A stretch of DNA of 64,000 bases. Source: Liolophura sinensis. Taxonomy: Eukaryota > Mollusca > Polyplacophora > Chitonida > Chitonidae. The DNA lies in contig NC_088301.1 in assembly GCF_032854445.1 (NCBI RefSeq), positions 28,318,402 to 28,382,401 on the forward strand. The letters run 5' to 3'. Made by a program: the position numbers and the translations under genes. Positions 9,207-37,636 of the stretch are shown here, piece after piece. The notes below the pieces were generated by a model. That model did no database searches, was not told the origin of the DNA, and saw only the letters and a list, made by a program, of their open reading frames with translations. The number at the start of each line of letters is the position of its first letter. Within the stretch, counting starts at the first letter, position 1.

Positions 9207-12200
9207 TCATGTCTCCAATTTGTGCTCGTCTTCCACAGCCGGTGGGTGCTCCAGGACAGAGTCTATAAGACCAAACTCCTTAGCTTCTTGCGGGGACATA
9301 AAGCGATCTCTTTCAATATTTTTCTCTGAAACAAGAAGTGTAGTTGCAGCTGAAAGTTCCACTAGTACACTGCACACCACAACACATACACTTTTTACTT
9401 GATTCGGAGAGGCTACCTGAAATTTATTTATTTATTTATTTGACTGGTGTTTTACAGCGTACTCAAGAATATTTCACTTATGCGAAGGCGACAAGCATAA
9501 TGGAGGGAGGAAACCGGGCAAAGCCCGGGGGAAAACCACGACGATCCGCAGGTTGCCGGCTACCTGAAATACTCCATCTTGCACCATATTTAAAAAAAGG
9601 ACCTTTTTCCATAGGAGAGTCAAGTGATATTTGACGACTTGGTATGTTATTACTGCAAGGAATAAATGCTTTCTCGAAATATTTCTCAAAAGAAAATATA
9701 ATCCGTAAGGCGACAACTTTATGAAATGGTTAAGCAGAAAAACACAAAACCTAGTAGTTTAGCAAGGAAGACAGTAGTATGGCATGCAGCCAATCAGAAT
9801 TGAGTAGTAAATGTAAATGGACTTGGTTTGTGGTAGAATTTTCAGCTTCATCTGTCTTATTATACATTTACCACCCAAATAACATTTTATACACATACCT
9901 GCAATTAAAATCAAAAGTCAACGGAGGAAAAAAGAGTTACTGAGCCATAATCATTTCTCAACAACGAACTTGAGTATCAACAAAGGTTTCCCCTTGCTCC
10001 CCTTACCTATTGTCTCCAGAGCCTGTTTTGTATGTTTTACATACAGCCGGTTTATCTGAGACTTCAGTTTCAGGATTTCCTCAGCTTGTATTTGTATATC
10101 AGTGGCTTGTCCCTGAAAATTATATAAACCCAGTCAAATGTTGTTTAACGCAATACTTGAGATACCCGAGTTTCTCAATGTTTTTGGCATATGAAAGATC
10201 AACCTTCTTAGCTATTTTATGCATCTTTTTAATACCATTTTGGGGTAATTGGTTGGATTGGCAAATTTTAGGGCTTAACAAAAAGTATAATTTTCCCATT
10301 TATCTTGCAAACTCGCAAAAAAAAACTGAAGAACTACAGTAAGATGCTAATCTTGTTCAAGGGCGAACATTGTCATTTGAACTATTCTTGGTTAACAAGA
10401 AAGGTGATTTGATTAGGAAATATGGATTTTATTTTGCCAAAAATCTGTTGTATTACCTATTTAACATGCTATGGACGAATTGTTCCATGACTACCGAGTA
10501 CTCACAGATGCCTGTCCTGAAGGCTGATGTATCATAATCCTTGAGTTAGGTAGGGAATGCCTCATGCCTGGGCTCCCTGCACACAGAAGTAGCGAGGCCA
10601 TACTACATGCCTGTCCAACACACCACGTGGCTATAGGGGGCAGCACATACTGCATGGTGTCGTATATGCCTAACCCTGCAGTCACCGAACCACCTGTACA
10701 AATATAATATTAACAAAGATCCAATGCATTTTGTTGTGGCTAAACCTGCCAAGCACGACACTTAGGCTTTTCTGGCAAACTTACAGTTGTGGCACAAATC
10801 TTTTCAGCATGTATACTGAACAAAAAAAAATTATATTGAAAATGGGTACTACAAAGTAGTTAATATGGGCAAATACGATAATGGCCAATCGTAATTGTGG
10901 TGAACCATGTGTTGGAAAGGAGGGAACGGGTCATGCCGCATGATCTTTTGTCAAAACGCGATTTTGGACTTGTGCGAGGTCACATGACCACAATTTCATG
11001 TGGCTGAACACGTAGGTGTGAGGAGAATTTGCTGGCGATTAGAAAAAACACGCCAACAATCCTTGAGAGAGAATTGGCAACAATTGTCATGCCACACCTT
11101 ACTAGCGCTGAACGTGCAGTCAGCATGCTCCAGGATTACCAGTCTACTGCAGCTTTTGCACGTGCCATGAGATGCAGTACACGGACAATTCACAACCTCA
11201 GGACACATGTTCACTGTTAAGGGTCGCGTAACTGCCCAGACCAGACCAGACCAGACCATCATTATTACCTAACTGCTGGTGCGCTGCTCATCTTCATGCC
11301 AAACTTCCTCATGTTAGGCCGAATCTGACACAGGTGACTGTAATAAAGGTCTATACTGGGAATAGCTTCACCTGCGCTGGAACCAGAGACAATGGACTAA
11401 GGTTGTGTTTAACGGGTGTTGACGTCATGGAGTGTGCCATCGTGATCACCTGACCTCAATCCCATCAAACATAAATGAGATGCGTTTCAAAGACGACAAC
11501 CTCAGAATGTTCAACGTTGCCTTGTTGTGAACGCGAAAGCTGCAATACAGATGGCTAGTCCTTGTGAAATTGAAATGTGACCACATCATGCTCCTGTTGA
11601 CTGTGGAGGGTGCACCAAGCGCACCTTAATGTTTAATCCTGTTTTAGTGCATGCTCAATATGTCCATAAACCAAATTTGTCCAGCAGCAACACACTGTCT
11701 TCTATATGTGGGTATTTGGAACATAAAGTAATACATGTGAAGCTTCTTTTTTTGTTCAGTATACATGTAACAATGATGATAATTATCAAATGCAGATGGC
11801 ATTTGGAGAAAACACAAAATCATCGGAAAAAATGTGTTAACACTGAAACAACAATATACATAAATAAAAATCAAGTGTTTTCACAGACTGATTCTAAAAT
11901 ATTCTATCCGCTTTTTATGGACATTCATGGTCTTGAAAACCTTTCAGTTCATTTACCTTACTTGACTGAATGTTAAAACAGTATACTCGGAAAGTTTTTG
12001 CTTACATGTATTTGACAGCTGTCTCGTTTACAGAGGGGGGAAACCAGAGTGTCCAGTAATAAACCACCCGCTTCTCCTGACATAAAGCCACAGACAAAGC
12101 ACAATAACTCAGGAAAATCTCATGATTCTGAAGGCAGATGAAGTTAGACAACCAACCTGGACTGTTTATGTACATGTGAATGGGCTTCTTATTACTCTCA

Positions 12201-15200: not shown

Positions 15201-17087
15201 TCTTGTGCCTCCTACAGATGATCAATTTGGTACCCTTGCTATCATTTCTAAGTCATATATACATTTTTTACATTGAATATTATATGTGGTACAAAGCTTA
15301 CAGATTTATTTATTTCATTTGGGTTTAATACATACCCAAAATTACTTCCTAATACAGCGGTCAGTTATACGGAAGAAATTGGAATGTCTAGTGTAAATAC
15401 ACCATTGGCAACTAACTGTATCAATTCTTTTCCACACATAACATTCAAGAAAATTTCTTTACGACTGTCAAAACAATTACAGGTGTTGTCCACTACTTAC
15501 TTCCACTAAGGCCCAGAGAACAGGGCAGTGTGCTTACTTCCACCAAAGCCCTGAGAACAGGGCAGTGTGCTTACTTCCACCAACGCCCTGAGAACAGGGA
15601 GGTGAGCTTACTTCCACCGAGGCCCTGAAAACAGGGCGGTGAGCTTACTTCCACTTTGGCCCGGAGAACAGGGCAGTGAGCTTACTTCCACCAAGGCCCT
15701 GAGAACAGGGCGGTGAGCTTACTTCCACCAAGGCCCTGAGAACAGGGCGGTGAGCTTACTTCCACCGAGGCCCTGAAAACAGGGCGGTGAGCTTACTTCC
15801 ACCGAGGCCCTGAGAACAAAGCGGTCAGACCATTTCCAGCAGTATAGATTGATTGGTGTTTTACACCATACTCAAGAGTGCCAGCATCATGGTGAGTCGG
15901 GACCATGCTCTTCCTGGCAGACCTTCACACCAGCATGAGATGGACTTGAACACGTAATTAAAATCATAGGAAACAGCTCCTGTGTGACTTTCAGCTATAA
16001 CTTGTCAGATTAGTGCTACCTTACTGATAAACGTACACTATCTCATGTTTTACAGCTCAATCTTTTCCATAAGCTTGAAACCTCCATACTTCTCATATTG
16101 TCCTCGCTATACAAATTTCGTGTCTGTCTGTACTCATAGTCGCCTCAGCTATCAATTCCAGGTGGGTGTACCCATATGTCATCACTGCCAAATTCAACAC
16201 AAATGAAACATGACAAACCTGAAACCCGCGGAAACTGGACAAATTCCATCCCTAATCACCATCAATAAACATGTTTCTTACAGAAATCATTTTCATAATG
16301 GAAGTTGATTATTTATATTGGTAATTACAAGCTAACGTAGATCATTATACTGGCTGGACTGATGACTAATAAAATAGCCCATGAGTGTGAAAAGTTCAAA
16401 CTTGACAGTAAATTTGCGGTCGATGTGAGTTCAAATCCAGCTCATGCTGGCTTCCTGTCCGGTTGTAAATGAGAAGGTTTGCCAGCAACCTGTGGATGGT
16501 TGTGGGTTTCCCCTGGGCTCTGCCTGGTTTCTGCCCACCATAATGCTGGCCGCCATTGTATAAGTTAAATATTCTTGAGTACGACGTAAAACACCAGTCA
16601 AATAAATAAATAACAGTAAATTTACATGATTCCTTCACGTGACGAGTAAGTTCAAGATGGTGAGAGACGGTACCAGTTTCGTCTCTAAGCATGATGACAC
16701 TATTTACACTGACAACTACGCTATATAGGCTTAATGGATGATGAATACTATATAGCAGTGGATCGTTTGACTTCTGGTCAATTAGTAATGGCACATCTGG
16801 ATACCTACCTAGAATTAATAGTTGAGGCGACTGTGAGTATGGACAGACACAATATTTGGCGGACAACATTAGTATATTGAAGACAACACCGGAAGCAGAT
16901 GTGCTTACGACAAGCTTATGGGCCAAGGCAGGGTTGATGCTCAAAATATACGTAATGACAGGCTACAGAGTTTTAGTGTCTGCTCAACACATAGGCCTAC
17001 ATGTAAATTGTCATTGTATCCCGATAAAACACGCATTCATAAAGATAATGCTATTCTGTAATCTGTTACCTTTGTAAACACGAACAT
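9207..17087 (-). CDS. CLPP: Mitochondrial ATP-dependent Clp protease proteolytic subunit (ClpP), six exons
   Basis: ClpP is the serine peptidase of the mitochondrial matrix; it forms heptameric rings and works with the ClpX unfoldase. Minus-strand exons are 17087-17070, 14243-14073, 12253-12157, 10693-10506, 10112-10007 and 9325-9207. All have AG/GT borders and matching phase, giving 232 aa. Residues 1-45 are basic and hydroxylated ([16 protein letters not shown]), as expected of a targeting peptide. The mature part opens with [16 protein letters not shown]. Catalytic residues are Ser126 in VGQACSMAS, His151 in RIMIHQPSG and Asp200 in [29 protein letters not shown] and [12 protein letters not shown] are near-identical to animal CLPP as I recall it. 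The C-terminal tail is short (ends EDEHKLET). Exon 1 (ATG then AAG/GTAACA) is short and rests on phase and the donor only; the other five exons are very secure. A poly(A) signal (tttatt on plus) lies at about 8950. Confidence 0.95.
9422..9561 (-). repeat. SINE-A copy, truncated
   Basis: Begins 'tttatttatttatttgactg', continues 'gtgttttacagcgtactcaa' and 'ggcaaagcccgggggaaaac', and breaks after 'atccgcaggttgc'. It lies in the last intron of clpP, about 100 bp from the final exon. Confidence 0.85.
10808..11767 (+). mobile_element. Tc1/mariner-like DNA transposon relic with terminal inverted repeats
   Basis: The ends are inverted repeats: 'catgtatactgaacaaaaaa' at 10,808 and 'ttttttgttcagtatacatg' ending at 11,767. 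Between them is a degenerate transposase reading left to right. A helix-turn-helix-like segment ([15 protein letters not shown], 11,159-11,203) is followed after frame changes by [10 protein letters not shown] near 11,455. That matches the SPDLNPIEHLW block around the last acidic residue of Tc1-type DDE transposases. A segment with [12 protein letters not shown] follows. Stops and frame changes make it inactive. It lies inside a clpP intron (between the 10,693 and 12,157 exon edges). Confidence 0.7.
13075..13415 (-). repeat. SINE-B copy (second tRNA-derived SINE family)
   Basis: Read on the minus strand it has a tRNA-like head ('gcggtagagcgtcc' type A box, 'ggatccagggtccatcc' type B box). A body follows with 'tcgtcatatgactgaaaa', and a TCAC-type tail shows here as 'gagtgagtgagt'. 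Related copies are at 21,370-21,602, 29,463-29,760 and 37,295-37,636. Confidence 0.7.
13610..14050. repeat. 45-bp minisatellite in a clpP intron
   Basis: Tandem units of 45 bp contain 'aaatccccaatgatctgggt' and 'acaagacatatcacacacag' (unit starts 13,741 and 13,786). A roughly 90-bp alternation of two variants ('aatgatctgggtac' and 'aatcactgtggtaa') is visible. Because 45 is divisible by 3 and no stop occurs in the unit, both strands stay open for over 110 codons. The array ends about 25 bp from the splice donor of clpP exon 2. Confidence 0.9.
14594..14872 (-). repeat. SINE-A copy, near full length
   Basis: Runs from 'tttatttatttatttgattg' to 'aacaactgagtgatggaggc'. On the minus strand the right end is the tRNA-like head, so it was inserted in minus orientation, upstream of clpP exon 2. 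Confidence 0.9.
15487..15832. repeat. 37-bp minisatellite with internal palindrome
   Basis: About nine tandem units of 37 bp (starts 15,499 and 15,536). They contain 'acttccaccaaggccctgag' followed by 'aacagggcggtgagctt'. Each unit has the small hairpin GCCCTGAGAACAGGGC. The array is in the first clpP intron. Confidence 0.9.
15845..15962 (-). repeat. SINE-A copy, internally deleted
   Basis: Contains 'gattggtgttttacaccata', 'ctcaagagtgccagcatcat' and 'ccagcatgagatggacttga', with most of the middle missing. Confidence 0.7.
16412..16612 (+). repeat. SINE-A copy, 5' truncated
   Basis: Plus orientation: 'tgagttcaaatccagctcat' (B box), 'ccctgggctctgcctggttt', 'ttcttgagtacgacgtaaaa' and a 'caaataaataaataac' tail. 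The 182-codon minus-strand ORF across it is a by-product. Confidence 0.85.
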
Positions 17088-17348
17088 GATGGATATTACG
17101 CAAACAGAACAGATAGAGGAACGAAGAGAAACCTCTAACCATTTGCTTTCTCATCTAAGGTCATTTCACGTGGGTTTGCCTATGGCGACTGGAGTTATGC
17201 GCCCCTTTTCCTCACTTCCGGTAGTTGTAGCGCGAGTGGCAGACGCGCGATAGATACATGGCGACAAGATAAACAACTTCGTGCACACCGTTATAACGGT
17301 TAAAAAGTAAATTAATGAACTGTTATTTTACATCTAGAATTATTTGAA
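17088..17348. promoter_or_regulatory. Probable bidirectional promoter of CLPP and the CARD gene
   Basis: This 261-bp interval separates the predicted start codons of two divergent genes. It holds a CACGTG E-box at 17,167-17,172, an ETS-type site ACTTCCGG at 17,214-17,221 (CCGGAAGT on minus) and a GC-richer stretch with several CpGs at 17,200-17,260. No TATA box is evident. A tiny upstream ORF (ATG GCG ACA AGA TAA, 17,258-17,272) lies ahead of the CARD gene. The transcription starts are not known; the shared-promoter role is inferred from geometry and motifs. Confidence 0.55.
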
Positions 17349-17508
17349 ATGACCACTGTACGGAGAAACACCTATGTTCTCAACAGGTAGGATTTATTTT
17401 CAGTGACATTCTGCAGGAAAAAAGATTATATACTTCAATTGTTTTTTTTTTGCTCTCTGACTGTGACGCGTTTGGCAGTGCACTGAATTCACTCTTTACG
17501 CTGCTATT

Positions 17509-17569
<61 letters not shown>

Positions 17570-20500
17570 TTAAAGTGATATGTTTCTTGTAATGTGTACG
17601 GAGTTGACCTTGTGTTGCATAAGCCCATCAGAGAGGTCACGTGTTCAAATCCAGCGCCCACTGGTTCAAGGCCCTGCGGGGATGTCTGTCTGGTACCAGG
17701 TGCCATAAAACTGATTGTCTTCATATCAGCCTAAATGAATCAGTCAGTCAATCAATTAAAACTGTTCATAATACTATCATCTGTAAAAAGGGCTAATTAT
17801 GGAAAAGTAAAATGGTGTCCGGGGTATGAAAATAGCACATAGAATCTCTATCCAACGAATTGTCCTCCACCATTGATACTTGGTGTAACAGGGGTTATTT
17901 TTCACAAATAAAGTCACATAATTATTAAATTGATCAACTGACTGGTACACCTGACCTTTATACCTGCAGGAGACCATTAACAATATCCCATCCTGGAAGT
18001 GCTTCAGGCCTGGACCGTCAGAACTTGATGAGAATCAAAGTGAACAGGATTGCCCTGATACAGGAGTTACATGTGGAGCACATTGTACAGTATCTTGTGA
18101 AGACGGGTGTGTTAAATGGAGCCGACCTAAAGCACATTGAGAGAGGAAGTATGCCGCCAGACAGAACTAGGCTTCTTCTGGACTTGCTAGCTTCAAAGGG
18201 CAAAGATACAGAGTGGTACAAACACTTCAGGTGGGCATGGAAATGATTCATGTGTGCATGTATTAGTGGCAGGTTTTGTCTTCGCATTTAAGTTCGTTTT
18301 TTGTTTTCTGCGAAACATTTAATTATGATGTGTTGGGTGGAGGGTCAGATTTCTGCTCCTGTAAAGTGGTCACAGCTATACTTATTATTACTCATTATTA
18401 TTACTCATTATTATTATCATTATGAGCCCTGGAATGAGAAAAATAAGAATAAAATCCATATTTATATGTGATTATTATCATTATACTCATTTTAGGAACT
18501 CCCTACTAAACCCTGATGCCAGCCCCATCCTATCTAAAAGGTACAGATGTCTTGTGGAGTTCCTGGATAACACTATCATCCACAGACCAACCTCACAGGG
18601 CAATCTATTCCGGGACTTCACTTCTCTGCCAGCCTCCAAACTGCCAAACCCAAGTTCCTTTCACCACTACAACACCCTGCCTCCCATACAAAGGAATGGA
18701 GATGCCGTCAACCCTGCCAAACATGAGAGGAAAGTCTCACCAGACATCCTCAAAATCCACGATGGCGATAGCAGCGATTTTCTCAGTCCTAGAGATCCAC
18801 AGGGAGATTCTAAAGATGAGGCCATGGACCATGAAGAGGAAGGCATTGTAAACCCAAGCAGTTCCCCAATAGTTAAAGGTGACATATATGTATAGCCATT
18901 CAGTATACTACGTGTGCTCGCCATAATACTTAAAGTAAAAATTAAATATGTCATCACCAAAATATCCTTAAAAATAAATAATATAGCCTGAAATATCGCC
19001 GATGTGGCCTCAAGCCATATTTATTCATTGATTTAAAGTAAAAGACAGTCTGAGGATTATTAAATTCATTAAAACAGATCACAAGTAATAAAGTCACAGC
19101 CACGTCCTGAAATAGTAAGTTCATGCATACCATATATGTCTCAGTTGATATTTTTGACCAATCATATTGCCTCACTTCTCAAACTTCCAAATAATACTAT
19201 GTACTGTTTCCAATTGGGTATTTGGGCCTAACCCATTTAGTTTTCCTGAAGCATGAGAGAGCTCAGGCCCATGGGTGATAATCCACTGACACAATGGGTA
19301 CTCCCACAACTTTCCATGATTCAGGCTTAGACATTTCTGTTTTCTTTTTTTTTTAAAAGTACTGCTCCATTCACAAGAGAAATCAGGAAGAATATTAAAA
19401 TGATATGAAAGATACCCCAAGGAACAACATGGTTCAAAAATGAATAATACTTAAAGTTTTAATACCTTCGTCTTGAGTTTGTTGTGTATTCTTGGGATGT
19501 GACTTGGTAAGAAACATGGTTCAGCGATATCGGGTCTCACAGCAAACGTCAAGACAGTACTGAAGTCTATTCTGCCCCCAGAAATGAAGAAAATGAGGCT
19601 AACACTGCCTGTTACATGCGTCTTAAATTTTGCTGCCATCCTCTTGCACTCCCTCCTCAGAGGTCATGCATTTTACACCAATCAGTGGCAAGCTTAGTCC
19701 ACTGCAGTTGACCTAGATACTTTATATTGAGTCGTATCTTACTGTTGTGTGACATAGGAACGTAAAAATTTACTGTATTATGAGGTCTATAAATTGGTAT
19801 GAAGTAACACTTTTATCACTGAAGGAAATTCCGATAGTTCGTCTTGTATATATTAAATGATAAAAGCAAATCTAACAAGCAAACAAATTTAAAATCTTAT
19901 ATTTGTAGAAATAAACAACTATAGCATGAACTGTTATTATTCAGGGAGGTAAATGTACCGGCCAGTGTGTTGCTTGACACAGACTGTCACGTTGCTTGAA
20001 AGGTCATCTCTGTCTTATATGTATATCTGCACACGGCCTACAACTAACAGCGTCGTAGAATGTTTAACCTCTGTTAACGTGATAATATTCCCCATGTGAC
20101 GATGAATCAGGCAAATATGACGTCGAGTCTGGCGTTTATTCTGGAATATCATGCAAGCTGGAATATGTGATGTCATTTTCTGCTGCATGTCAATGATGGG
20201 TGATACCAGATGTTCTAGCATAACATCACACCAGGCAAAATTGCAAACGACAGAAAACTGTTTTGGGATAAAAAAAAAATTGTTTTCATTTTGTCCTATA
20301 AAACTAACAACAGCGGTTTTAATGCCGTATTACAATCTTTTTACAGTAACTGTTTAGGAAAGCAGTTCCGATTTTTATCATTTAACCATGCTTTTAAAAC
20401 ATACAGCCCTTGACACTCGAGTAGCTCTTTGAACAGACATGCTGTAAATGTTATGTTTCACAGATTTTTGTTAGGTAATATGCTGTACTGTGGAAATCGT

Positions 20501-23500
20501 CCATCTATACTGAGGTAATTGGTCAGATGTTTAAAATCAATGCTGGTTAATCAATTAATCAATCAATTAGTTAATCATTCAGATCAAACTTTTCCCGGCA
20601 GGTTACATCCACCACTGGGTGCCAGTTCCTGCAAACTTCAGTCACTCTCTTATCCCAGAGCCTGATGACTTGTTTAGGTCTCTGGGGGATTCTCCTCTGG
20701 CTGAGGACAAAGCACAACTGCACCTGGAGCGTCAGGCTCTGAAGACAGCGCGCAGCTTGGAGCTGATGCATCAGCTGCAGCGTAAGAAGATGCTTCCTCA
20801 CAACATGGAGATTATTCAGAGCGAACCCGCCCATGACCTTTTGGCCAGCCCTGACCAATTTCACCTCTATGCCAAACACTTCACGCTGCTCCTGCATAAC
20901 CACGGTGTCAATCTTCTCCATGACCTTGCCAACTCTTTCCTCGTCGTCCTTAAGGCGCTCCAGCCCAGTGACAATATCAACAAGATAGGGGCGACAATCA
21001 AGCAAGGACTCGACCTAACTGACCTTTTTTCAGAGCTTAACCAGAGCAAGGAGGCAGAGCAAACCCTGATCTCTGTGCTTGGTTTTCTGAACAGACATCC
21101 CAGGCTTGAAACTGTGATGGCTACATATAAAGGTGTGCACTTTCGTTTGTTTGATTTGGCATTCATTCGGGTTTGCTGCTTTTAGTTTTAGTTTGGCTGT
21201 ATCATGGTGCAGGACTGTCATGCTGGCACTGGGTTGACCAGTACTTTGCCTATTTACAAGCCCGAAAAGCAACTTCATGTAGTAGACAGCAGATTTAAAA
21301 TTCTTGTGTTTGGTTGATGCAAAGTGTTTGTATAGTCTCAAATGGGATCATGGTGTGCAGCATGAAGGGGATAGCGCAACGACTGGTTGACCCGTATAAG
21401 TATAATGGCTCAGGCGGGGCGGCTTACTTGCCTTCGGTAAGTCCTCTCAGTGAAGCAGCACTAGATAAAAGAGCGGTGGAAATCCGTCCTGCAACAAGGA
21501 GGTACATTCCATGCACCCTAAGGGTTCCTTCGTCGTCATATGACTGAGAAATTGTTGAGCACGACATTAAACCCCAAACACTCACTCACTCACTCACTCA
21601 CTTTAAATTTACCAAAAGCGAAAGACGTCACCAATGTTTGGGAGGATCCTGTGTTAGTTTTACAGTATTAAACATACATGTATAATTTACATGTAGCTAA
21701 TAATTCTAATTATTAAAGGTTAATTACACAGTGTTCTCTGGATCGACACCAATTTTGTTCAGTGTTGTATGGGCTGAGACCAAAAATCCACAACCCCAGT
21801 TTTTATTTTCTCGCTGTTTTATGAATTTCAATTTTTTTTTTTTTACCCATTCCAGTCATGTACATATTTCTTCCACAGGAAAAATTGTAAGAATAGTCAC
21901 ATTTTCCACCATTTAAAAATGGTGGAAAATTTTCAAAATTTTCAAATGGCTTTTTTAAATTTTTTTATTTTCTCCTCTGACTTTGAAAAAATTAACAACA
22001 ATTGAGATTGTTGGGGCCTGTAATAATACCTATAATGGGCTTATATGTCACATTTACTGAACATATAAAAATCACGTGGCATTTTCTCCCACCAGGTTAT
22101 ATAAAGTTAATGCATCTTATGAACAAGGAATACAATTTGAGGAGTACAAGCATCGCCTACTTCCGGATCACAGAGGTGATTTGGCAGATCGAGAAGATGT
22201 CCTTTGGTCAAGATCTTGTGGAGAAAGGAGAGATGTATTTGGAGCTAAGTCACATGATGCTTGAGAGTGGAAGTGTTAATTCTGCTTACAGCTGGGCGTT
22301 CAAATCTTTACAGGTTAGTGTCGAAATTACACTTTCTTGAATCTTGGCTGTCCCTGCATTACAATATTGTGTGATAGGGTAGGTTCCTTTGTGACGCGAT
22401 ATACCTTGACTTTACAGGACAGTCCAGCAAATCATGTACCATGTGACTTGTGAAAAATGTTAGACAACTTTTGTTGACATTGATTTATTTATTTATTTAT
22501 TTGATTGGTGTTTTACGCCATACTCAAGAGTATTTCACTTATACGACAGCGGCCAGAAATATGGTGGGAGGAAACCGGGCAGAGCCCGGGGGAAACCCAC
22601 GACCATCCGCAGGTTGCTGACATACCTTTCCACGTACGGCCCGACAGGAAGCCAGCATGAGCTGGACTTGAACTCACAGCAATCGCATTGGTGAGAGACT
22701 GCTGGGTCATTACACTGCGCTAGCGCACTGACCGACTGAGCCACGGAGGCCCTCATTTGTTGTTGACATTGAACGTTTAGAATGATTGTAATGGGAGACT
22801 GGAGAAGGAGCTACACGGACAGTCCAAATGACAGTAGAACGCATCATTTTCTCCTGAGACGTTGCAGTGCATGTGTATTTTGTATCTGTTTTATTAGCAC
22901 ATATATGCCAATAATTGTGATGTAATAAAGGAAAGAACAAATGAGTCCACACCTTGGACCATCTGGATACAGGTGAGAAGGAATTATATGAGTTCCCCGT
23001 TATTAATATACTCGGTTTAAAAAAGTTACTGTGCCATGGAGTTAAGCAAAAGTTAAGAAAACATGTGAACGAAAAAGATTACACAAGTTCCATTCTTTGC
23101 AGCTTAGCTTTCATAAATACTTTAATATAAATGTATATTTTATTTACTTAGTTATTTGATCGATGTTTTATGCTATACTCAAGAATATTTCACTCATACG
23201 ACGGCGGACAGCATTATGGTTGGGAGGAAACTAAGCAGAGCTCGAGGTGGAAACCCATGACCATCCGGAGGTTGCTGGCAGACCTCCCCACGTACGGCCG
23301 CAGAGGATACCAGCATGAGCTGGACTTGAACTCACAGTGACCACGTTGATGAGAGGCTCCCGGGTCATTATGCTGCGCTAGCGCGCTAACCAACTGAGCC
23401 AAAGACCTTTGAAATTACTTTATATACTGCTGTCTAAAGTAGAGCGTATCATCCTGCCATCCCGATCAGAATTTGCCAGTGTTTATGCTATGTTTGTTAT

Positions 23501-26500
23501 GGACTTATTTATGGCAAATCCATAGTGTCTTTATGTATTGATGAGAATTATTTTAAATTTCCTGCTCAACAATTTCAGGCAAAATTTGATAGCCCCGATA
23601 TATGATTGTAGCCTACTACCAGGAATGTGCATGCACACTCAGAGTACATATAATTCATTGTAGATTTTAACATAGGCGAATCATTAGCTGCAGTAAATCA
23701 TCCGCAGACATCCAACTAGATACATTGTTGTGGAGTTTTCACGCTCCAAGAACATACACATGGAGCAGTTATATTGATGTTGCGGAATGTCTTAAAATCA
23801 TGCTCGTATCATCCGCCCTCGTTGGTACCATGCATGGTGTCATGCATGAATCCTGTTTGGTTTGTGTGCCCATCATACGCATGTAATGGAACATGATCCA
23901 ACCTTGGTGCGCCCACCATGCGCCAACCATGGAGCCATGCGCCAACTATGGAGCCATGCGTCAACCATGGAGCCATGTGCCAACCATGGAGCCATGTGCC
24001 AACCATGGAGCCATGCACCAGCCATGGAGCCATGTGCCAACCATGGAGCCATGCGTCAACCATGGAGCCATGTGCCAACCATGGAGCCATGCGTCAACCA
24101 TGGAGCCATGTGCCAACCATGAAGCAATGTGCCAACCATGGAGCCATGCGCCAGCCATGGAGCCATGCTCCAGCCATGGAGCCATGCTCCAACCATGGAG
24201 CCATGCGCCAACCATGGAGGAATGTGCCAACCATGGAGCCATGATGGGCGTATGATATTCGGCTGGAATACGGCTGTACTGTTTACGTTAAAGACTGAAA
24301 GTTCAACAAGTTAGGGTCATTTTACATTCATTTAAGCTGGTATAATGATCAAAGAAGAATATCTATTTCATGTAGCTTGAAAAATATTAATTTTGGGCCA
24401 GGAAAGTCACAGAAATTTGAAATCTGTGAAGTGTTCAAACTCCGAAAATGGCTCGCAGCACATTAAAAAAAAATTATCACAATACATCTAACATAGTCTA
24501 ATACATAGGGATTTATTTCAAATTTAATAACATTTTTGTAATATACACTGTACATGTATTTTATGAATATTTGTCTGATTTTGATGTCCTGGAAGTTATA
24601 TTAACTTTTTTTGTTTTTTTTCTGATCGATTGAACAAATTTAATATTTAAATGATTTCAGCATGTGTCTGCCGAGGAGAAGACGAGTGTAATTAATGTGT
24701 TGTGCAATGCTGTCATGGCATACTGCAGTAAGTGGAACATTAAGAGGGCTGAACAGTTAGCTGTACAGGCCGTTCAGCTATCCAGGTACAGTATCTCTTT
24801 AGGACAGACTAAGTAATCAGAAAACCACCAAGCTAAGAAACTACATTGTTTTTGTCTACAATACTTCATCAGTTGTTACATTATTATCACCTGCTGCTGA
24901 AACTGTGAAAGTATATCGATATAAGTACAGCTGGCTGGCCAGCGTTTACTGATTAATGATGCGGGAGAGCCATGTATAGAATGCATATTTTACACAGTGG
25001 ACATTTTAACTGAGAGTCACAATGGGGGAAACTTTAAATTAATCCCCAATAGGTCAGTGGTTGGAACATTGTGAAACTCTAGTAATTTTCTGACAGTGAG
25101 GGGTACACAGAAGAACATTGACCCAATGAATAATGCGAAAGTAAGGATAACAGAAGATGTCACTGTGACAGTTTTCAGGGATGTACAAAAAATATGCTCC
25201 CCCCGCCCCCACTTACAGACGGCACTGGTCTTTTTTACTTTAATCTACATTCCTACCCTAACAACTTAGAGTATGTCACGCAAAACACTGGCCAGTAGGT
25301 TTACCTCTCCGAATAATATCAGTTCATGGTATTTATTTCTACAAATGAAAGAATCTGAGTTTGTTTACTTGTTAGATTTGCTTTTATGATTTATGTAAAG
25401 GTGAACTATAGGGATTTATTTCAGCGATAAAACTGTTAGTTTGTACAATTTATAGATATTGAGCTTTGGTTTTTATATTTTTTAAATAATTGACACCCAG
25501 TCACCATGGAAAAAGAAACATTTGTTTCATGACGTTCCAGTCTGAACCCATTGGTATGATGTCGTAATGCATGTACAGTAAACGCTCACATTTCTATATC
25601 ACAAAGTAAGACACGATGTCATACATACGCAGTTGGGAAGTATCTAGGTTATCTGCAATGGCCTAAACTTGTCGTTGATTGGTCTAAAATGCATGACGTG
25701 TGCAAAGGGAGTATAAGAGAACAGCAGCAAAAAGCTGCAGGAAATATACGTTTTTTTTTGCCTCATTATCTTCATTTTTTTTTTTTTTGGTAGAATATAC
25801 TTTAACACCTTCATCATGGTGTAACCGGCCGATAACGCTGAACTTTGTTTCGTACCTCGTCAAATCCCTCAAATGCTGCTCATTCTCGGGATTTGACTCG
25901 ATACCAAGCAAGGTTCAGCGATATCGCATTATATAACAAAGACCGCTACAACAGTGTTAAACCCCTAAATAATATTACAATTCTAAAATTAAGCTTTATT
26001 TACTCTAAAATTAATGCACTCATTTTCTCTCAGGGAATACTTTGGCAGCCGGCATCCCATGTACCTGAAGGCTTTGTTGACATACTGTTACTACTCTAAT
26101 GAGTTTCGTCAGGATGATTCTGGTGTGGAAATAGCTCGGGTAAGCATGTATAGTGTGTTGATTTTGCACATCTGGTACACTGCAACTGCACACCACAGTA
26201 ACTGAAAGAGGCTGGAAATGGAGAACACTGTGTCTATAATTTAGATGTAGAGATTGGTCTCACTGCAAATGAATGGCATGAGTACATGTAGGCCATTATA
26301 AATATTTATTTATTTGACTGGTGTGTCAAGTCGTACTCAAGAATATTTCACTTATACGACGGCGGCCAGTATTATGGTGGGTGGAAACCGGGCAGAGCCT
26401 GGGGGGAAACCCACGACCATCCGCAGGTTGCTGGCAGACCTTCCCACGTACGGCCAGAGAGGTCATTACAAATAAATCTAATAGACTAAATATATAGCTA

Positions 26501-29500
26501 TAAAGCTCCACAAACACCTAAACACTGTTGCTCTGGTGGGTCCATTTCCACAAAGCTTTTGTCGACTATGTAATGGAATTAATGTACTAGTTACCTTGCG
26601 CAGTAGTGTACAGTCTTTGTGTAAGTTTGAAGTGCCAATAATTAGTTATGCCGATTAAGAGTTAGCTTTCAAATTTCGAGGACCAAATGTTTTGACAACC
26701 TGTGAGAGATTCTATTGGCCGACGTTTGGTTGAACACAAGTAATCAATACATATGTCACAAGTGCAATGTACCCACATGGTGAAAGTGAGAAGTTCTGGG
26801 AATATCAGAACACAACTAATCAATACATATGTCTCAAGTGCAGTGTGCCCACATGGAAAGAGTGAGAACTTCTGTGAATGTCAGAACACAGCTAATCAAT
26901 ACATATGTCACAAGTGCAATGTGCCCACATGGAAAGAGTGAGAAGTTTTGGGAATGTCAGAACACAACTAATCAATACATATGTCTCAAGTGCAATGTGC
27001 CCACATGGAAAGAGTGAGAACTTCTGTGAATGTCAGAACACAGCTAATCAATACATATGTCACAAATGGAATGTACCCACATGGTGAAAGTGAGAAGTTG
27101 TGGCAATGTCAAAACACAACTAATCAATACTTAAGTCACAAATGCAATGTACCCACATGGTGGAACTGAGAAGTTTTGGGAATGTCAGAACACAACTAAT
27201 CAATACTTAAGTCACAAATGCAATGTACCCACATGGTGAAAGTGAGAAGTTGTGGGAATGTCAGAACACAACTAATCAGTACATAGGTCACAAATGCAAT
27301 GTACCCACATGGTGAAAGTGAGAAGTTGTGGGAATGTCAGAACACAACTAATCAATACATATGTCACAAGTGCAATGTACCCACATGGAAAGAGTGAGAA
27401 GTTCTGGGAATGTCAGAACACAACTAATCAATACATATGTCACAAATGCAGTGTACCCACATGGTGAAATTCAGAACTTCTGGGAATGTCAGAACACAAC
27501 TAATCAATACATCTGTCACAAATGCAATGTACCCACATGGAAAGAGTGAGAAGTTCTGGGAATGTCAGAACACAACTAATCAATACATATGTCACAAGTG
27601 CAATGTACCCACATGGTGAAAGTGAGAACTTCTGGGAATGTCAGAACACAACTAATCAATACATATGTCACAAATGCAGTGTACCCACATGGTGAAATTC
27701 AGAACTTCTGGGAATGTCAGAACACAACTAATCAATACATCTGTCACAAATGCAATGTACCCACATGGAAAGAGTGAGAAGTTCTGGGAATGTCAGAACA
27801 CAACTAATCAATACATATGTCACAAGTGCAATGTACCCACATGGTGAAAGTGAGAACTTCTGGGAATGTCAGAACACAACTAATCAATACATATGTCACA
27901 AATGCAGTGTACCCACATGGTGAAATTCAGAACTTCTGGGAATGTCAGAACACAACTAATCAATACATCTGTCACAAATGCAATGTACCCACATGGAAAG
28001 AGTGAGAAGTTCTGGGAATGTCAGAACACAACTAATCAATACATATGTCACAAGTGCAATGTACCCACATGGTGAAATTCAGAACTTCTGGGAATGTCAG
28101 TTTCTACATGATCTTGCAGTTTATATAGGCCTACCAACCAGTGTTAATTCAACTCCACAAACATTTGAATCGTTTCAAAACCTCTGAATGAGGTGCGAGG
28201 GAGGTGTAAACTACTGTCACTGATCGACTACCAGTAATCCCCTATTCCCTCCAGAGGGTTTACGACTTAAAAACAGCAGCCCCTACAGGGCACCATGGTT
28301 TATAGTTATACCCAGAAATTGTCTCAGGTTATTGAAAAGGTATGGTATGTGCCATGGGGACTGCCACTTGAACATGTCCCTCTGGAATCAAGGTTTAATA
28401 GTGACATATTATTATTTTGACAGCATACCCTACAGGTGGCCAGAATAACATACGGAATAGAGACGCCCCAGCAGGCGCATGCGCATCGTGCTCTCTGCAA
28501 GGCTCTCATTGTGGCACAGAATTTCAAGGAGGAAGAATATCTAGATCATGCACAACGCGCCTTCAGCATCAGTCAGGCCTGTTACCCTCCAGCCCACCCA
28601 GCCAAGTACCTGTTCCACTTTACGCTGGGTAAGAGGGGCCTCTGGGGCCAAGGTGGTTAGCATGTGAGAAGGGTACAATGACCCAGGAGCCTCTAACCAA
28701 TGCAGTCGCTGTGAGTTCAAGTCATATGCTGGCTTCCTCTCTGGCTGTACATGGGAAGATTTGGCAGCAACCTGCGGATGGCCATAGGTTTCCCCTGGGG
28801 AAACTTAGACTTAGGTTTCAGCATTAGTCAAGCCTATTAACTACCCCGCAATGCCCCCCTCCCCAAGCCCAACCCCAAACCCTCATAAGCCCATCCAGCC
28901 ATACACTGGTTCCACTTTACAATATGTATAAAGATCTTGACTTGAGTTTTAGCATCAGCCAGGCCTGTTACCTCTCAGCCCATACACCATGCACCTTTTG
29001 TCCTTCTTTTAAGATAGCTTTTAAATGTAAAACTCAAATACTTGTGTAAAACACCAATCAAATAAACAAATAAATAGAATACTTATGACTGGAGACACCA
29101 ATACTTGGTTAATTATGCCAGGGTGTGAATTTTTTGTTGTTGTGGTTTTCAGCCTATGCCCAGTACTGGAAAGCTCTGCAGCTTCCACCCAGTGAGCAGG
29201 AGGCTACGTTGAGCTTAGCCCTCCAGGAGATCTCTCATGCACACTCACAGGTGTTACAGCATTTCGGGGACCTCTGTCTGCGGCATGCCCAGGTCCTTGC
29301 TCTAATGGCACAGATCTCCATCAAGATGAACAAGTAGGTTGGAAAGGGATGTGCCCAAAGTGTCATGATAGTTTTCAATGTTAAAGTGAATATAACATTG
29401 GACATACAATGTGGTTAAAATGAAAAACCATTAAAACTATATGTGCATACACATTTTAAATTCTGGTGAGTGAGAGAGTGCTAGAGGTTTAACATCATAA

Positions 29501-32500
29501 TTGTTTTTCAGTCATATGACGACAAAGGAGTCCTTAGACTGCTCTTTTATCTAGTGCTGCTTCACTGAGATGCCTTACCAAAGGCAAGTGAGACGCTCCG
29601 CCTGATCCATTTACTGAGACGTGTCAACCAGTCGTTGCACTATCCCCTTCATGCTGAGCGCCAAGCGAGGAAGTGACAACTTCCTCTTTTAAAGTCTTAG
29701 GTGTGGCCCAACTCTGGATTGACCACTGACCCTCTACGAACTGAGCCATCTGGGCCGGTCTTGTTATGTCCTGCCTCTTAATGAAGGGGAACATACAGCA
29801 ATTGCTCTTTTCATCTGTCTGTCCTTCCCACTCAAATTTATGTAGAGGATATCTTGGCTATTATTATTTATTTGTTTATTTTTTTGATTGGTGTTTTACG
29901 CCGTACTCAAGAATATTTCACTTATATGATGGCGGTCAGCATTATGGTGGGTGGAAACCGAGCAGAGCCCAGGGGAAACCCACGACCATCAGCAGGCTTG
30001 ACTATTATTAGGCAAAGGATTCTCAAACTCACAAGGTATGCAAAATCACCTTAAGTTGTGCATTGTCATGCTATTTTTTCACATTTTTGATCTGTTGTAG
30101 TCATATATCTTTGTGCATATTTTGAATATTATATGGCATATGTTTGTTAAACTCACACAAAGTGTGCAAGATGACCTGAAGTGATGCATTGTCAAATTAT
30201 TTTTTCACATTTTGATTTTTTAAATTGTTGTCTGCACTTGCCCATGTGTCAAAATATATTTGCATCTGGGTATGACATAGCATACTTGTGCATGTAGGAT
30301 ACTGTTAGTTACATGGTTACTCAGGGATAGGACACACAAATATACGGTGTCAGTAATCCTGATAATGGGCTCAGCATTAGCTATATGGTTACTCAGTGAT
30401 AGGACATGCAAATATACAGTGTCAGTAATCCTCATAATGGGCTTGGCCTCAGTTACAAGGTTACTCAATGATAGGACACACAAATATACAGTGTCAGTAA
30501 TCCTCATAATGGGCTCAGCCTTAGCTACAAGGTTACTCAGAGATAAGACATGCAAATATATGGTGTCAGTAATCCTGATAATGGGCTCAGCATTAGCTAT
30601 ATGGTTACTCAGAAATAAGACATGGAAATATACGGTGTCAGTAATCCTCATAATGAGCTCAGCATCAGTTACATGGTTACTCAGGGATAAGACATGCAAA
30701 TATACGGTGTCAGTAATCCTCATAATGAGCTCAGCATCAGTTACATGGTTACTCAGGGATAAGACATGGAAATATACGGTGTCAGTAATCCTCATAATGA
30801 GCTCAGCATCAGTTACATGGTTACTCAGGGATAGGACATGCAAATATACAGTGTCAGTAATCCTCATAATGAGCTCAGCATCAGTTACATGGTTACTCAG
30901 GGATAAGACATGCAAATATACGGTGTCAGTAATCCTCATAATGAGCTCAGCATCAGTTACATGGTTACTCAGGGATAGGACATGCAAATATACGGTGTCA
31001 GTAATCCTCATAATGAGCTCAGCATCAGTTACATGGTTACTCAGGGATAGGACATGCAAATATACAGTGTCAGTAATCCTCATAATGAGCTCAGCATCAG
31101 TTACATGGTTACTCAGGGATAAGACATGCAAATATACGGTGTCAGTAATCCTCATAATGAGCTCAGCATCAGTTACATGGTTACTCAGGGATAGGACATG
31201 CAAATATACAGTGTCAGTAATCCTCATAATGAGCTCAGCATCAGTTACATGGTTACTCAGAGAGAAGACATGCAAATATACGGTGTCAATAATCCTCATA
31301 TTGAGCTCAGCATCAGTTACATGGTTACTCAGAAATAAGACATGCAAATATACAGTGTCAGTAATCCTCATAATGAGCTCAGCATCAGTTACATGGTTAC
31401 TCAGAGAGAAGACATGCAAATATACGGTGTCAGTAATCCTCATAATGAGCTCAGCATCAGTTACATGGTTACTCAGGGATAGGACACACACAAACATGGT
31501 GTCAATAATCCTCATATTGAGCTCAGCATCAGTTACATGGTTACTCAGGGATAAGACATGCAAATATACAGTGTCAGTAATCCTCATAATGAGCTCAGCA
31601 TCAGTTACATGGTTACTCAGGGATAAGACATGGAAATATACGGTGTCAGTAATCCTCATAATGAGCTCAGCATCAGTTACATGGTTACTCAGAGAGAAGA
31701 CATGCAAATATACGGTGTCAATAATCCTCATATTGAGCTCAGCATCAGTTACATCGTTACTCAGAAATAAGACATGGAAATATACGGTGTCAGTAATCCT
31801 CATAATGAGCTCAGCATCAGTTACATGGTTACTCGGGGATAGGACACGCACAAACACGGTGTCAATAATCCTCATATTGAGCTCAGCGTCAGTTACATGG
31901 TTACTCAGAAATAAGACATGGAAATATACGGTGTCAGTAATCCTCATAATGAGCTCAGCATCAGTTACATGGTTACTCGGGGATAGGACACGCACAAACA
32001 CGGTGTCAATAATCCTCATATTGAGCTCAGCATCAGTTACATGGTTACTCAGGGATAAGACATGGAAATATACGGTGTCAATAATCCTCATGATGGGCTC
32101 AGCATCAGTTACATGGTTGCTCAGTGATAGGACATGCAAATATGTCCTTGCACTCTCACTTGACTTTCAACATTTATGAATTATACATTCAGTCATATTG
32201 TAACAGTCCTGCGCAGTTGATCATATATGGAGTACCTTATTGCCAGTTAATAGGCAGTTAGCAAGAGATTTTAGAAACCACTTTTCACAAGATCTTTCCT
32301 GGGTTGTAGAGCCATTGATTTTATATGAGAAGTTAAGAAAAAATTTATTTACAAAGTTTTATGATAAAAGGCCCTGGGTTCAAGCCAAAGTTGTGTCATT
32401 TCTTAAGACTTGATTTTGGCTGTTTTAGTTCCACTTCACATGGGGCTGTAACAAAACGGATCAAGTATGGGTTTTTCTAGTGTGGGCATGTAACCTCAGG

Positions 32501-34795
32501 AGTAATATCTTCTGATATCATGGCATTTCTGTCAATTCTACATTGAAATACAATGCCGACAATATGGTTGTGTGATTATGGAAATGGTATCTACACTTTT
32601 TCTCTCACTTTTTAGAGAATGGCATCTGTTCCATGTGCACGAGCCATATTTTTGACCCATGCACATTAAGGCATGTTATAAACTTGAACCCTCCTTTATT
32701 TTTTATTTCGTTGTTGTTTAACGCCATGGTAAAGAGTTTTTCACTTATGCGATGACCGTCAGGTTTATAAGAAAACTGCAGTGCTCGGTGCGAAGGAGGT
32801 ACTTTTAGCAAGTGACTGATGAACTTTCCCATATACACACCATACTGGTAGAAGACAAGTGGTCATCAACGAATATTAGACTTTGCAAACAGCCACACAA
32901 GCTTTATTGACTACTTGTTGTCACCATGGCCCCATTGACAGCAAGAGTGGTGGAATTCCCTGTTCAAGACTGGGTTTGAACCTGAAACCAGCTCCCTCCA
33001 GCACAGTTCAAATTAAGGAAGCCATGACGATGTTATGATTTGGGCTGAGCATGGCCCCATGTCGTAGTCGTAACTGACATTAGCTTTACGATTCATTTTT
33101 CTTTTGCAGATTTAAGACAGCGGAGTCACTGCTGGTTACCAGTGACAAAATCCTGAGCCTGTGTTTGCCATCTCATAGTAACTACTTGCTGGTTACCCAG
33201 GCAACACTGGCTATGTTTTATGCTATGGATCCAGTTGGAAAGGTGGAAGATGCCAAAATTCTTCTTCAAAAGGTCATCAAAGAATTAGGTAAGAAAATCA
33301 ACCCAGAATTTACTCAGCTATCTTGATATTTTTATGCTCAGTGTTGAAGAACTATTGGATGGTGAATGGCTTTTGGGTTAGAGAGTGCAAGCCAGTGTCC
33401 TGTCATACATTTGGTATAAATTCTATGGCTTGGCATTAAGACTAAGGGGATAAGCTTAGTACAGCTCAGCATGACATCAAATTGCTGTGACTGGGTGGAT
33501 ATCATGGATGGTTGGTTTTTGGCATGTCAGTCCACTCAGATAGCGTTGTAATACTCTGTGATCTAGCTGATTGCATGCTAATGCAGCAGAATTACTCAGG
33601 AGCCTCTCGCCAATGAGTCCAGCTCATGCTGGACTTTCTCTCCAGTTGTACATGGGAAGGTCTTCCAGAAACCTGTTAATGGTTGTGTTCCTCTGTCCAG
33701 TTTCCTTCCACCATAATGCTGGTTACCATTGAATAAAGTGAGATATTCATGAGTATGGCATAAAATACCAATGAAATATATTTATTTATTTATTTGATTG
33801 GTGTTTTATGCCGTACTCAAGAATATTTCACTTATACAACAGCGGCCAGCATTATGGTGGGAGGAAACCCATGACAGAGCCCAGGGGAAACCCATGACCA
33901 TCCGCAGGTTGCTGAAAGACATTCCCACATACGGCCGGAGATGAAGCCAGCATGAGCTGGACTTGAACTCGAATCGACCGCATTGGTTAGAGACTCCTGG
34001 GTCATTATGATGCGCTGGTGCGCTAACCAACTGAGCCACCGCGCCCCCACCCCCCCAGTGAAATATATAAATCAATAAATAATATGTTTATAGGTCCACC
34101 ATGGTGTGAGATTACCATAAAAATGTTAAAAATGTTAAAAATGAAAAACTAAGGCTGTCCGTACCACAGATAAGGTAACCCCCAAAGTCTGTGTTTTCAA
34201 GGCTATTGTTTAATGCTGGAGTTAAATAACTAGCTGGAGGAGGGGTTTACTGGGTTATTCGTCTTACTCAATGTCATTACATTTCACTGTAAATCTCAGC
34301 AACAAACATATAGGCCTGGTCTGGAATTCCAGGTTTTGTTTCTTTGGACCAAATGTATGATTTAAAAGCTGGAAGAGATGAAAGTGCCAGAAATAGTATG
34401 AGCAAGTCAAATCCAGAAGTCATCTGAATTATTTCCACCCACAACTGTCGATAAAATTGTATTCAATGATGCATCTGTTCGGTCAACCTCACAAACTTTG
34501 AACAATCTGTTTTTCAGACTCTCCTGGTGTACTGGTTAACTGGGTCGTATTTGCATTTGATCATCTAGTTGCTCTCCACCAATCAGCTGGTGAGCAAAAG
34601 GAAGCTGCCATAATAGAGGCTCAGAAGGAGGAATGGGTGGCCAACAATCCTCCACACACTTCGAAGATCACCCTCCCAGTACTAATGGAACCTCCCAGGC
34701 CATATGCAGAATTCCTGGCCGATTTTAACATTTGGCAGAAACGGGTAGACAGGTGGAAAGAAGCAAAAGAAAGCGAAGAGTGTTGCCATTTGTGA
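17349..34795 (+). CDS. CARD-containing APPBP2-like (TPR/helical repeat) protein, eleven exons
   Basis: Exons are 17349-17386, 17970-18230, 18496-18878, 20602-21132, 22096-22313, 24661-24785, 26034-26139, 28436-28628, 29153-29333, 33110-33288 and 34518-34795. All borders are AG/GT, phases agree, and the sum of 2493 nt codes 830 aa plus stop. The ATG at 17,349 has an in-frame stop at 17,316. Residues about 30-120 look like a CARD: NRIALIQELHVEHIVQYLVK, TGVLNGADL, LLLDLLASKG, KRYRCLVEFLDNT. Residues 130-226 are an acidic, Ser/Pro-rich linker. From about 290 the order of helical segments follows APPBP2 as I recall it: LLHNHGVNLLHDLANSF, LVEKGEMYLELSHMML, KRAEQLAVQAVQLSREYFGS, RHPMYLKALLTYCYYS, MNKFKTAESLLVTSDKIL. 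APPBP2 is a TPR protein and CUL2 substrate receptor of about 585 aa without a CARD. Adaptor or ubiquitin-ligase roles here are inference. The first exon is short and least certain; the divergent C-terminal homology needs profile confirmation. Confidence 0.8.
17512..17567. repeat. (TA)n microsatellite
   Basis: About 28 uninterrupted TA dinucleotides, in intron 1 of the CARD gene. Confidence 0.97.
19455..20120. repeat. Copy of the foldback-like repeat family (one arm plus part of the centre)
   Basis: 'tgacctagatactttatatt', 'aaggaaattccgatagttcg' and 'tatgtatatctgcacacggc' correspond to the right arm of the 7.7-8.8 kb palindrome. The 5' part holds 'ggttcagcgatatcgggtct', shared with the copy at 25,915. 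It lies in intron 3 of the CARD gene. Confidence 0.6.
21370..21602 (+). repeat. SINE-B copy, 5' truncated
   Basis: Contains 'ggatagcgcaacgactggtt', 'gcttacttgccttcggtaag', 'gcaacaaggaggtacattcc', 'tcgtcatatgactgagaaat' and a 'cactcactcactcactcac' tail. It lies in intron 4 of the CARD gene. Confidence 0.75.
22481..22753 (-). repeat. SINE-A, full length
   Basis: A complete copy from 'tttatttatttatttgattg' to 'accgactgagccacggaggc'. Minus-strand reading gives the tRNA-like head (A box 'gtggctcagtcggt', B box 'gagttcaagtccagc'). It is a good reference copy for the family and lies in intron 5 of the CARD gene. Confidence 0.93.
23140..23404 (-). repeat. SINE-A, near full length, diverged
   Basis: From 'tttacttagttatttgatcg' to 'accaactgagccaaagacc'. 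More substitutions than the copy at 22.5 kb. Confidence 0.88.
23915..24246. repeat. 19-bp minisatellite
   Basis: About 17 tandem units of 19 bp, ccaaccatggagccatgtg with gcg/gtg and tct/cag variants. Three units make 57 bp, so translated peptides repeat every 19 aa. Several frames on both strands are free of stops. It is in intron 5 of the CARD gene; the ORFs are repeat by-products. Confidence 0.95.
25250..25955. repeat. Copy of the foldback-like repeat family
   Basis: The sequence from 'ttacctctccgaataatatc' to 'ggtctaaaatgcatgacgtg' is the reverse orientation of the arm at 8.27-8.7 kb. The centre has the same T-rich tract. The end at 25,835-25,930 is itself a hairpin in which the two halves carry 'gctgaactttgtttcgtacc' and 'ggttcagcgatatcg'. 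It lies in intron 6 of the CARD gene, ending about 80 bp before exon 7. Confidence 0.6.
26302..26464 (-). repeat. SINE-A copy, tRNA head truncated
   Basis: From 'tatttatttatttgactggt' through 'ggcagacctt' to 'cccacgtacggccagagagg'. The tRNA-related part is missing. Confidence 0.85.
26738..28105. repeat. 76-bp minisatellite with 228-bp higher-order repeat
   Basis: About 18 tandem units of 76 bp, each with 'caatacatatgtcacaagtg', 'caatgtacccacatgg' and 'gaatgtcagaacacaac'. From about 27,361 to 28,090 a three-unit block (228 bp) is repeated three times almost exactly; equivalent positions are 27,437, 27,665 and 27,893. It lies in intron 7 of the CARD gene. The overlapping short ORFs starting with MSQVQC are one unit read in successive copies. 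Confidence 0.95.
28655..28800 (+). repeat. SINE-A copy, 3' truncated
   Basis: 'aatgcagtcgctgtgagttc', 'gctggcttcctctctggctg' and 'tttcccctgg' mark the head and middle. The 3' end is missing. It begins within 30 bp of the exon 8 donor of the CARD gene. Confidence 0.7.
29463..29760 (-). repeat. SINE-B copy
   Basis: 'gtgagtgagagagtgctaga', 'cagtcatatgacgacaaagg', 'ccttaccaaaggcaagtgag', 'gcactatccccttcatgctg' and 'ctacgaactgagccatctgg' match the family. Intron 9 of the CARD gene. Confidence 0.75.
29866..29998 (-). repeat. SINE-A copy, truncated
   Basis: From 'tatttgtttatttttttgat' through 'gcagagcccaggggaaaccc' to 'acgaccatcagcaggc'. Confidence 0.85.
30300..32145. repeat. 72-bp minisatellite open on both strands
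   Basis: About 25 units of 72 bp, for example with 'cagtaatcctcataatgagc', 'tcagcatcagttacatggtt' and 'actcagggataagacatgca' (unit starts 30,709 and 30,781). The period is a multiple of three and the unit lacks stops in one frame on each strand. This leaves a 610-codon ORF on plus and a 639-codon ORF on minus, each a 24-aa repeat. Variants (aggacac/aagacatg, ttgagc/atgagc) are interspersed. It is in intron 9 of the CARD gene. I treat both ORFs as non-coding because the array is intronic and has no flanking gene structure of its own. Confidence 0.95.
32700..33055. repeat. Interspersed repeat related to that at 36.67-36.94 kb (SINE-C)
   Basis: 'ttgttgtttaacgccatggt', 'tttttcacttatgcgatgac', 'ccatatacacaccatactgg', 'tagaagacaagtggtcatca' and 'gcaaacagcc' correspond to blocks near 36,680-36,900 ('gatgttcaacacaataatca', 'tggtagaagaccagtggttt'). 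It is a third, more degenerate family. Confidence 0.5.
33590..33778 (+). repeat. SINE-A copy, truncated, plus orientation
   Basis: 'cagctcatgctggactttct', 'gtccagtttccttccaccat' and 'gagtatggcataaaatacc' with a tail 'aatgaaatat'. It abuts a minus-oriented copy tail to tail. Confidence 0.75.
33778..34046 (-). repeat. SINE-A, full length
   Basis: From 'atatttatttatttatttga' to 'accaactgagccaccgcgcc'. With the preceding plus copy it forms an inverted pair with the tails in the middle, in intron 10 of the CARD gene. Confidence 0.92.
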
Positions 34796-37294: not shown

Positions 37295-37636
37295 GTGAGA
37301 GAGTCAGTCCTTGGGTGTTTAATGTGGTAATTGACAATTTTTCAGTCATATAACGACAAAGGGAAGGAGTCCTTAGAGTGCAGGTAATGTGCCTCCTTGT
37401 TGCAGGACGAATTTCCACCGCTCTTTTATTTAGTGCCGCTTCTTTGAGACGACTTACCGAAGACAAGTAAGGTGCCCCGCCATTACACTGAGTCAACCAG
37501 TCGATGCACCATCCGCCAGGTGGGGAAGTTTCAACTTCCTCTATTAACGGCTTTGGTGTGACCCGACCCAGGATTGACCCAGGGTCTACCGCCTCCGAAG
37601 CGGACGCTCTACCAACTGTGCTATCGGGGCCGGTCG
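37295..37636 (-). repeat. SINE-B, near full length
   Basis: On minus it begins with a recognisable tRNA-like head ('gatagcacagttggtagagc' A box region, 'tgggtcaatcctgggtcg' B box region). It then has the family body with 'ccttgttgcaggacgaattt' on plus. It is the best copy of this family in the window. Confidence 0.8.

Follow-up and report, generated by a model that had tools for sequence, protein, structure and literature searches.

A predicted gene joining a CARD to an APPBP2-like solenoid in the chiton Liolophura sinensis

APPBP2 (PAT1) has a role in transport, and the kinesin light chains are its TPR relatives. Among death-fold proteins, APAF1 and NOD1 carry repeat solenoids, while CRADD/RAIDD is an adaptor composed of a CARD and a Death domain. 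TIR-TPR proteins are named in PMC9334734 and PMC4346834, and domain grafting in the RLRs of lophotrochozoans is the subject of PMC8998645. According to PMC7458402, APPBP2 is a CUL2 receptor that is linked through Elongin B and C and reads RxxG-type C-terminal degrons. Here we describe a gene model in which a CARD precedes an APPBP2-like solenoid, on the plus strand of a 64,000-nucleotide stretch of the chiton Liolophura sinensis genome (C7:28318402-28382401 of the 609-Mb assembly). This whole stretch is referred to as the window, and exon and feature positions are given in its coordinates.

The predicted product resembles each of these described systems in part. Like APPBP2, it has a collinear solenoid over most of its length, two to three introns at exactly shared positions and a W-[VI]-P start at its N-terminus. 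Unlike APPBP2, it carries an additional CARD and linker, the pair of ligase docking motifs was not found in it, and the ordinary APPBP2 of this animal is another gene copy, to which it is identical at 124 of 575 positions (22%, E 5e-20). Its CARD is nearest to that of a CRADD-like locus (L033) among the 19 others listed in the genome; in contrast to CRADD/RAIDD, the protein has a solenoid in place of a Death domain, for which the Pfam listing of the product holds no match at E up to 5. With APAF1, NOD1 and the TIR-TPR proteins it shares the joining of a signalling domain to a protein-binding repeat, although it has no NTPase domain match and its repeat is of APPBP2 descent. A kinesin light chain identity for the solenoid was considered and rejected, as the best match to these proteins in the PDB has E 0.21, compared with 4.5e-23 for APPBP2. 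The combination of a CARD with a repeat domain is thus of a known kind, while the literature searched yielded no case of its pairing with an APPBP2 solenoid: no paper contained APPBP2 together with 'CARD domain' in 5.39 million full texts, a collection that mostly excludes subscription papers and does not extend to UniProt or nr, and a full-text literature search for 'amyloid protein-binding protein 2' with 'mollus' also returned none. The fusion may already stand in protein databases under an automatic name.

Rebuilding the gene from splice sites and reading frame yielded 11 exons, with GT-AG borders throughout and consistent phase, running from an ATG at 17349 to a stop codon that ends at 34795 and encoding 834 residues. 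The first-pass annotation of this DNA had proposed an in-phase gene of 11 exons over the same interval, with a product of 830 residues. Pfam places a CARD (PF00619) at residues 35-107 (33.9 bits and E 3.1e-8, where the curated cut-off is 23.9); the first-pass annotation had put it at residues about 30-120. Residues 290-768 match residues 52-529 of human APPBP2 in a single collinear stretch of 479 residues (phmmer against the PDB, E 4.5e-23, 85 bits), all three distinct APPBP2 sequences in the PDB are matched, and Pfam assigns TPR_10 to residues 490-527; the claim of a repeat region that follows APPBP2 segment by segment holds. The presence of a CARD and an APPBP2-like region in a single open gene model is confirmed by these sequence analyses.

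The weakest part of the model is exon 1 (17349-17386), which supplies the start codon and residues 1-13 in 38 bases and 13 codons and ends in the donor CAG/GTAGGA in phase 2; its basis is the ATG, the phase, the donor and a peak in CpG content. Exon 2 (17970-18230, residues 13-100) encodes the bulk of the CARD, which starts at 18034, and was found by a genome-wide CARD search with 32.7 bits. The CARD match ends at 18517 in exon 3 (18496-18878, residues 100-228) and is followed by a linker rich in serine, proline and acidic residues. The APPBP2-like region begins in exon 4 (20602-21132), where HHWVP resembles the LEWVP of APPBP2, and the solenoid continues through exon 5 (22096-22313), exon 6 (24661-24785), which bears most of the TPR_10 match, exon 7 (26034-26139), both borders of which are exact APPBP2 introns in phase 2 and phase 0, exon 8 (28424-28628), with an alternative acceptor at 28436, exon 9 (29153-29333) and exon 10 (33110-33288). 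It ends in exon 11 (34518-34795), where the phmmer match extends to 34594 and is followed by a C-terminal tail and the stop codon.

A model of nine exons, without exons 6 and 7, reached only 40 bits (E 1.2e-9) to APPBP2, compared with 85 bits for the model of 11 exons; since about 77 APPBP2 residues had no counterpart in the shorter model, the two exons were sought and found. Splice sites were scored with a leave-one-out matrix built from 23 introns, 10 from the window gene and 13 from the animal's own APPBP2, against 892 GT and 854 AG decoys inside the introns of the window gene. Nine of ten donors and eight of ten acceptors exceeded the decoy 95th percentiles (5.1 and 5.3); the sites below them are the exon 6 donor (3.3 bits) and the acceptors of exon 3 (3.2) and exon 11 (5.2). 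Introns 7 and 9 contain tandem arrays, of 76 bp repeated 18 times at 26732-28100 and of 72 bp repeated 25.5 times at 30307-32143, the latter underlying open frames of 632 and 648 residues on the two strands. An interspersed repeat was also seen by eye at around 22500, 23150, 29870 and 33780, and its letters had no occurrence in the text of papers.

The window gene is not the sole APPBP2 of the animal, an identity that was rejected on finding a canonical APPBP2 on another contig (C10). The rebuilt C10 gene has 14 exons and encodes 576 residues with the N-terminus MASACALEWVP; it is 68.8% identical to human APPBP2 over 478 residues (human 52-529), and Pfam finds TPR families in it but no CARD at E up to 1. 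The C10 gene, and not the window gene, fits the position of the APPBP2 orthologue, defined as the closest copy in the genome. Since the animal's ordinary APPBP2 lies elsewhere, the window holds a paralogue of it. Intron positions are consistent with common descent: a MAFFT alignment places introns 519/278 (phase 2) and 555/314 (phase 0) at identical positions in the window gene and APPBP2, where a simple Poisson estimate expects 0.05 exact coincidences by chance and gives a probability of about 0.001 for two or more. A third pair, 623/384 (phase 1), is in register when the ungapped phmmer alignment is used but not in MAFFT. The homologous part has seven introns in all; of the other four, one lies two codons away in an unchanged phase and three differ. 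On this sequence evidence, the window gene is an old, much diverged second APPBP2 with a CARD in front of it.

The solenoid used as a query against the genome returned its own exons (eight matches) and one match on C8 (E 0.15). Human APPBP2 52-529 returned nine exons of the C10 gene, besides a single weak match on C4. The animal's own APPBP2 returned 21 matches, of which 19 belong to the C10 locus; the other two are weak and lie on C4, one with E 0.0099 and one with E 0.019 and three stops. As each of the three queries misses the other of the two genes, an exon-wise search evidently falls short of 22% identity; no close copy of the window gene was found in the genome by a search that would miss copies equally diverged. 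The own APPBP2 locus (C10:4625676-4635845) contains intronic near copies of pieces of APPBP2 exons: residues 17-48 recur with 91% identity at 4626617-4626712, and residues 291-316 are repeated as several short copies within 4635033-4635845.

The genome-wide CARD search, which intron-split CARDs may escape, listed 20 matches, including that of the window. Compared with the 19 others listed, the window CARD is nearest to that of L033 (31.3 bits), followed by L040 (22.0) and L031 (19.8). The L033 CARD matches human RAIDD with E 2.2e-12, and a Death domain match starts 314 bases further on; on these two grounds we regard L033 as CRADD-like. Kinship of the window CARD to CRADD/RAIDD-type CARDs is a lead that these comparisons suggest. 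A comparison by eye of the 20 CARD matches listed with the 29 Peptidase_C14 matches listed, in which intron-split CARDs may be missed, showed no two less than 20 kb apart, and we therefore name no CARD-caspase partner. A further locus, L034 (C7:41544095-41545159, minus strand), shows a CARD and, 612 bases further along, a Death domain match, and is possibly a second CRADD-like gene.

Whether the CARD and the solenoid belong to one gene depends on the junction between exons 3 and 4. Exon 4 holds the APPBP2 start without an ATG, its earliest in-frame ATG being residue 283, beyond the conserved N-terminal start; an upstream coding exon is therefore needed, and exon 3 supplies one in the right phase. 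The donor of this junction scores 7.0, slightly under the decoy 99th percentile of 7.3, and the acceptor scores 8.2, over the corresponding 7.5. A CpG-rich stretch at 17001-17600, a possible promoter or transcription start, surrounds the start of exon 1, where the observed/expected CpG ratios of 1.25 and 1.34 are the top two among 318 intervals of 400 bases (mean 0.56, standard deviation 0.26), the two overlapping one another. If the interval instead held two separate genes or transcripts, the first product would carry the CARD alone, comprising exons 1-3 and reading on into intron 3, where an in-frame stop at 18893-18895 would end it 17 bases inside the intron, and exons 4-11 would encode a separate APPBP2-like product. 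Eight AATAAA/ATTAAA hexamers in 18880-20600 and a minor rise in CpG ratio (0.88-0.90) at 19801-20400 are in keeping with such a division. Against it, a search of 18900-20500 for alternative start exons, in the fitting phase and with a donor scoring 6 bits or more, found a single one, which is seven codons long. We consider two genes very unlikely and infer that all eleven exons form one transcript.

The first-pass annotation had further suggested that the protein could link caspase or innate-immune signalling to protein turnover or trafficking. As a CARD-bearing CUL2 substrate receptor, its solenoid would dock ELOB/ELOC-CUL2 and the CARD would bring death-fold proteins for ubiquitination or aim the ligase at them. 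The collinear homology to APPBP2, which spans most of the protein, speaks for this, as does the role of APPBP2 as a CUL2 receptor for RxxG-type C-degrons (PMC7458402); the link to ubiquitin-dependent turnover found no support, and the earlier interpretation is only partly supported. A docking scan was made by regular expression with a loose BC-box/CUL2-box consensus, a small and fallible test. A strict BC-box followed by a CUL2-box was found in human APPBP2 (12, 35) and in the animal's own APPBP2 (13, 36), and shuffling produced a pair no more than 40 residues apart in 20 of 2000 cases for the human sequence and 25 of 2000 for the own sequence, so that chance is an unlikely explanation for either. 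In residues 228-834 of the window protein no pair was found by this consensus, while 144 of 2000 shuffles have one; its strict BC-box-like match at 689 and CUL2-box-like match at 236 stand in the wrong order and occur at the rate of shuffled sequence. Of the residues common to human and own APPBP2, the window protein keeps 8 of 45 in human 1-75, 14 of 29 in 76-126 and 4 of 27 in 127-170. The protein has thus likely lost Elongin/CUL2 docking, a loss that we grade as likely rather than proven because segment 127-170 is equally diverged, and a working CUL2 receptor appears unlikely to us. Somewhat less likely still is a CARD-bearing transport or scaffold protein, whose kinesin light chain-like solenoid side would carry or anchor CARD assemblies: the own APPBP2 resembles kinesin light chains with a best E of 4e-16, but in the window protein this similarity is faint, at the E of 0.21 given above. 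The strong divergence and the large arrays in introns 7 and 9 could also indicate that the copy is decaying or is an artefact of assembly; we hold this to be extremely improbable, as 834 codons are free of stop or frameshift despite 22% identity and the window contains no N.

On balance, we prefer to see the protein as a CARD adaptor that re-uses the APPBP2 solenoid, and not as a working CUL2 receptor. In this explanation, to which we give about an even chance, APPBP2 was duplicated long ago, and one copy acquired a CARD and a linker and now serves as a CARD adaptor or sensor whose docking has been lost; the steps after the gain of the CARD, namely loss of the ligase box and the adaptor role, are what we infer. 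Exons for the CARD and linker would have been added 5' to what had been the first coding exon of the duplicate. In APPBP2 the TPR-like solenoid reads C-terminal degrons; here it would bind a protein partner or tail, and the CARD would recruit another CARD protein by homotypic assembly, the first candidates being a CRADD-like adaptor or an initiator caspase. As the parental Elongin/CUL2 docking box has seemingly been lost, the output would be assembly through the CARD and not ubiquitin transfer by CUL2. Several observations weigh against this explanation. The boxes in human APPBP2 are putative docking boxes, assigned by the loose consensus; the N-terminal alignment of the window protein to APPBP2 is poor, and the N-terminal segment is not uniquely diverged, as the counts for human 1-75 and 127-170 indicate. 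Among PDB chains, NOD1 (E 0.009) comes narrowly ahead of RAIDD (E 0.017) as a match for the window CARD, and resemblance is what the guess at a CARD partner is based on. The CpG control gave a mixed result: the start of the own APPBP2 has a ratio of 0.97 against a locus mean of 0.46, with higher intervals elsewhere in that locus. A scan for relatives outside this genome, covering viral contigs only, found none, the solenoid giving one pattern match.

The remainder of the window contains other features. On the minus strand lie ClpP-type protease exons at 9954-10133 and 10494-10709 (Pfam CLP_protease, E 1.1e-9 and 3.1e-29), near which other minus-strand frames resemble further exons by eye, three of these having no Pfam match when scanned. 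A cytochrome c oxidase subunit 6C exon (48409-48666, Pfam E 1.4e-17) and a tRNA-like match (37559-37630, 38.3 bits) are on the same strand, and a tandem array of 78 copies of 53 bp occupies 51244-55369. Elsewhere in the assembly, seven COX1 matches, one of them shorter, lie about 15.5 kb apart on contig C99, which is likely a concatenated mitochondrial genome. Eight beta-sandwich domains of molluscan hemocyanin occur in a row at C8:37880506-37891931 (107.7 to 148.2 bits), and eight such domains in a row are the mark of the eight-unit molluscan hemocyanin, so that the placement in Mollusca has good support.

The fusion suggests that a degradation receptor may have been re-used as a cell-death or immune adaptor. 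A bolder scenario, which we regard as possible though rather unlikely, is that a ligase receptor was rewired to death-fold signalling: in an APPBP2 duplicate the cullin-docking box would have decayed, a CRADD-type CARD would have been placed ahead of the solenoid, and the tail-reading solenoid would now trigger CARD assembly instead of degradation. If this were true, the rewired receptor would sense exposed protein ends and report to caspases. If the fusion is real, it would provide a test case for ubiquitin-ligase substrate receptors turned into cell-death or innate-immune adaptors.

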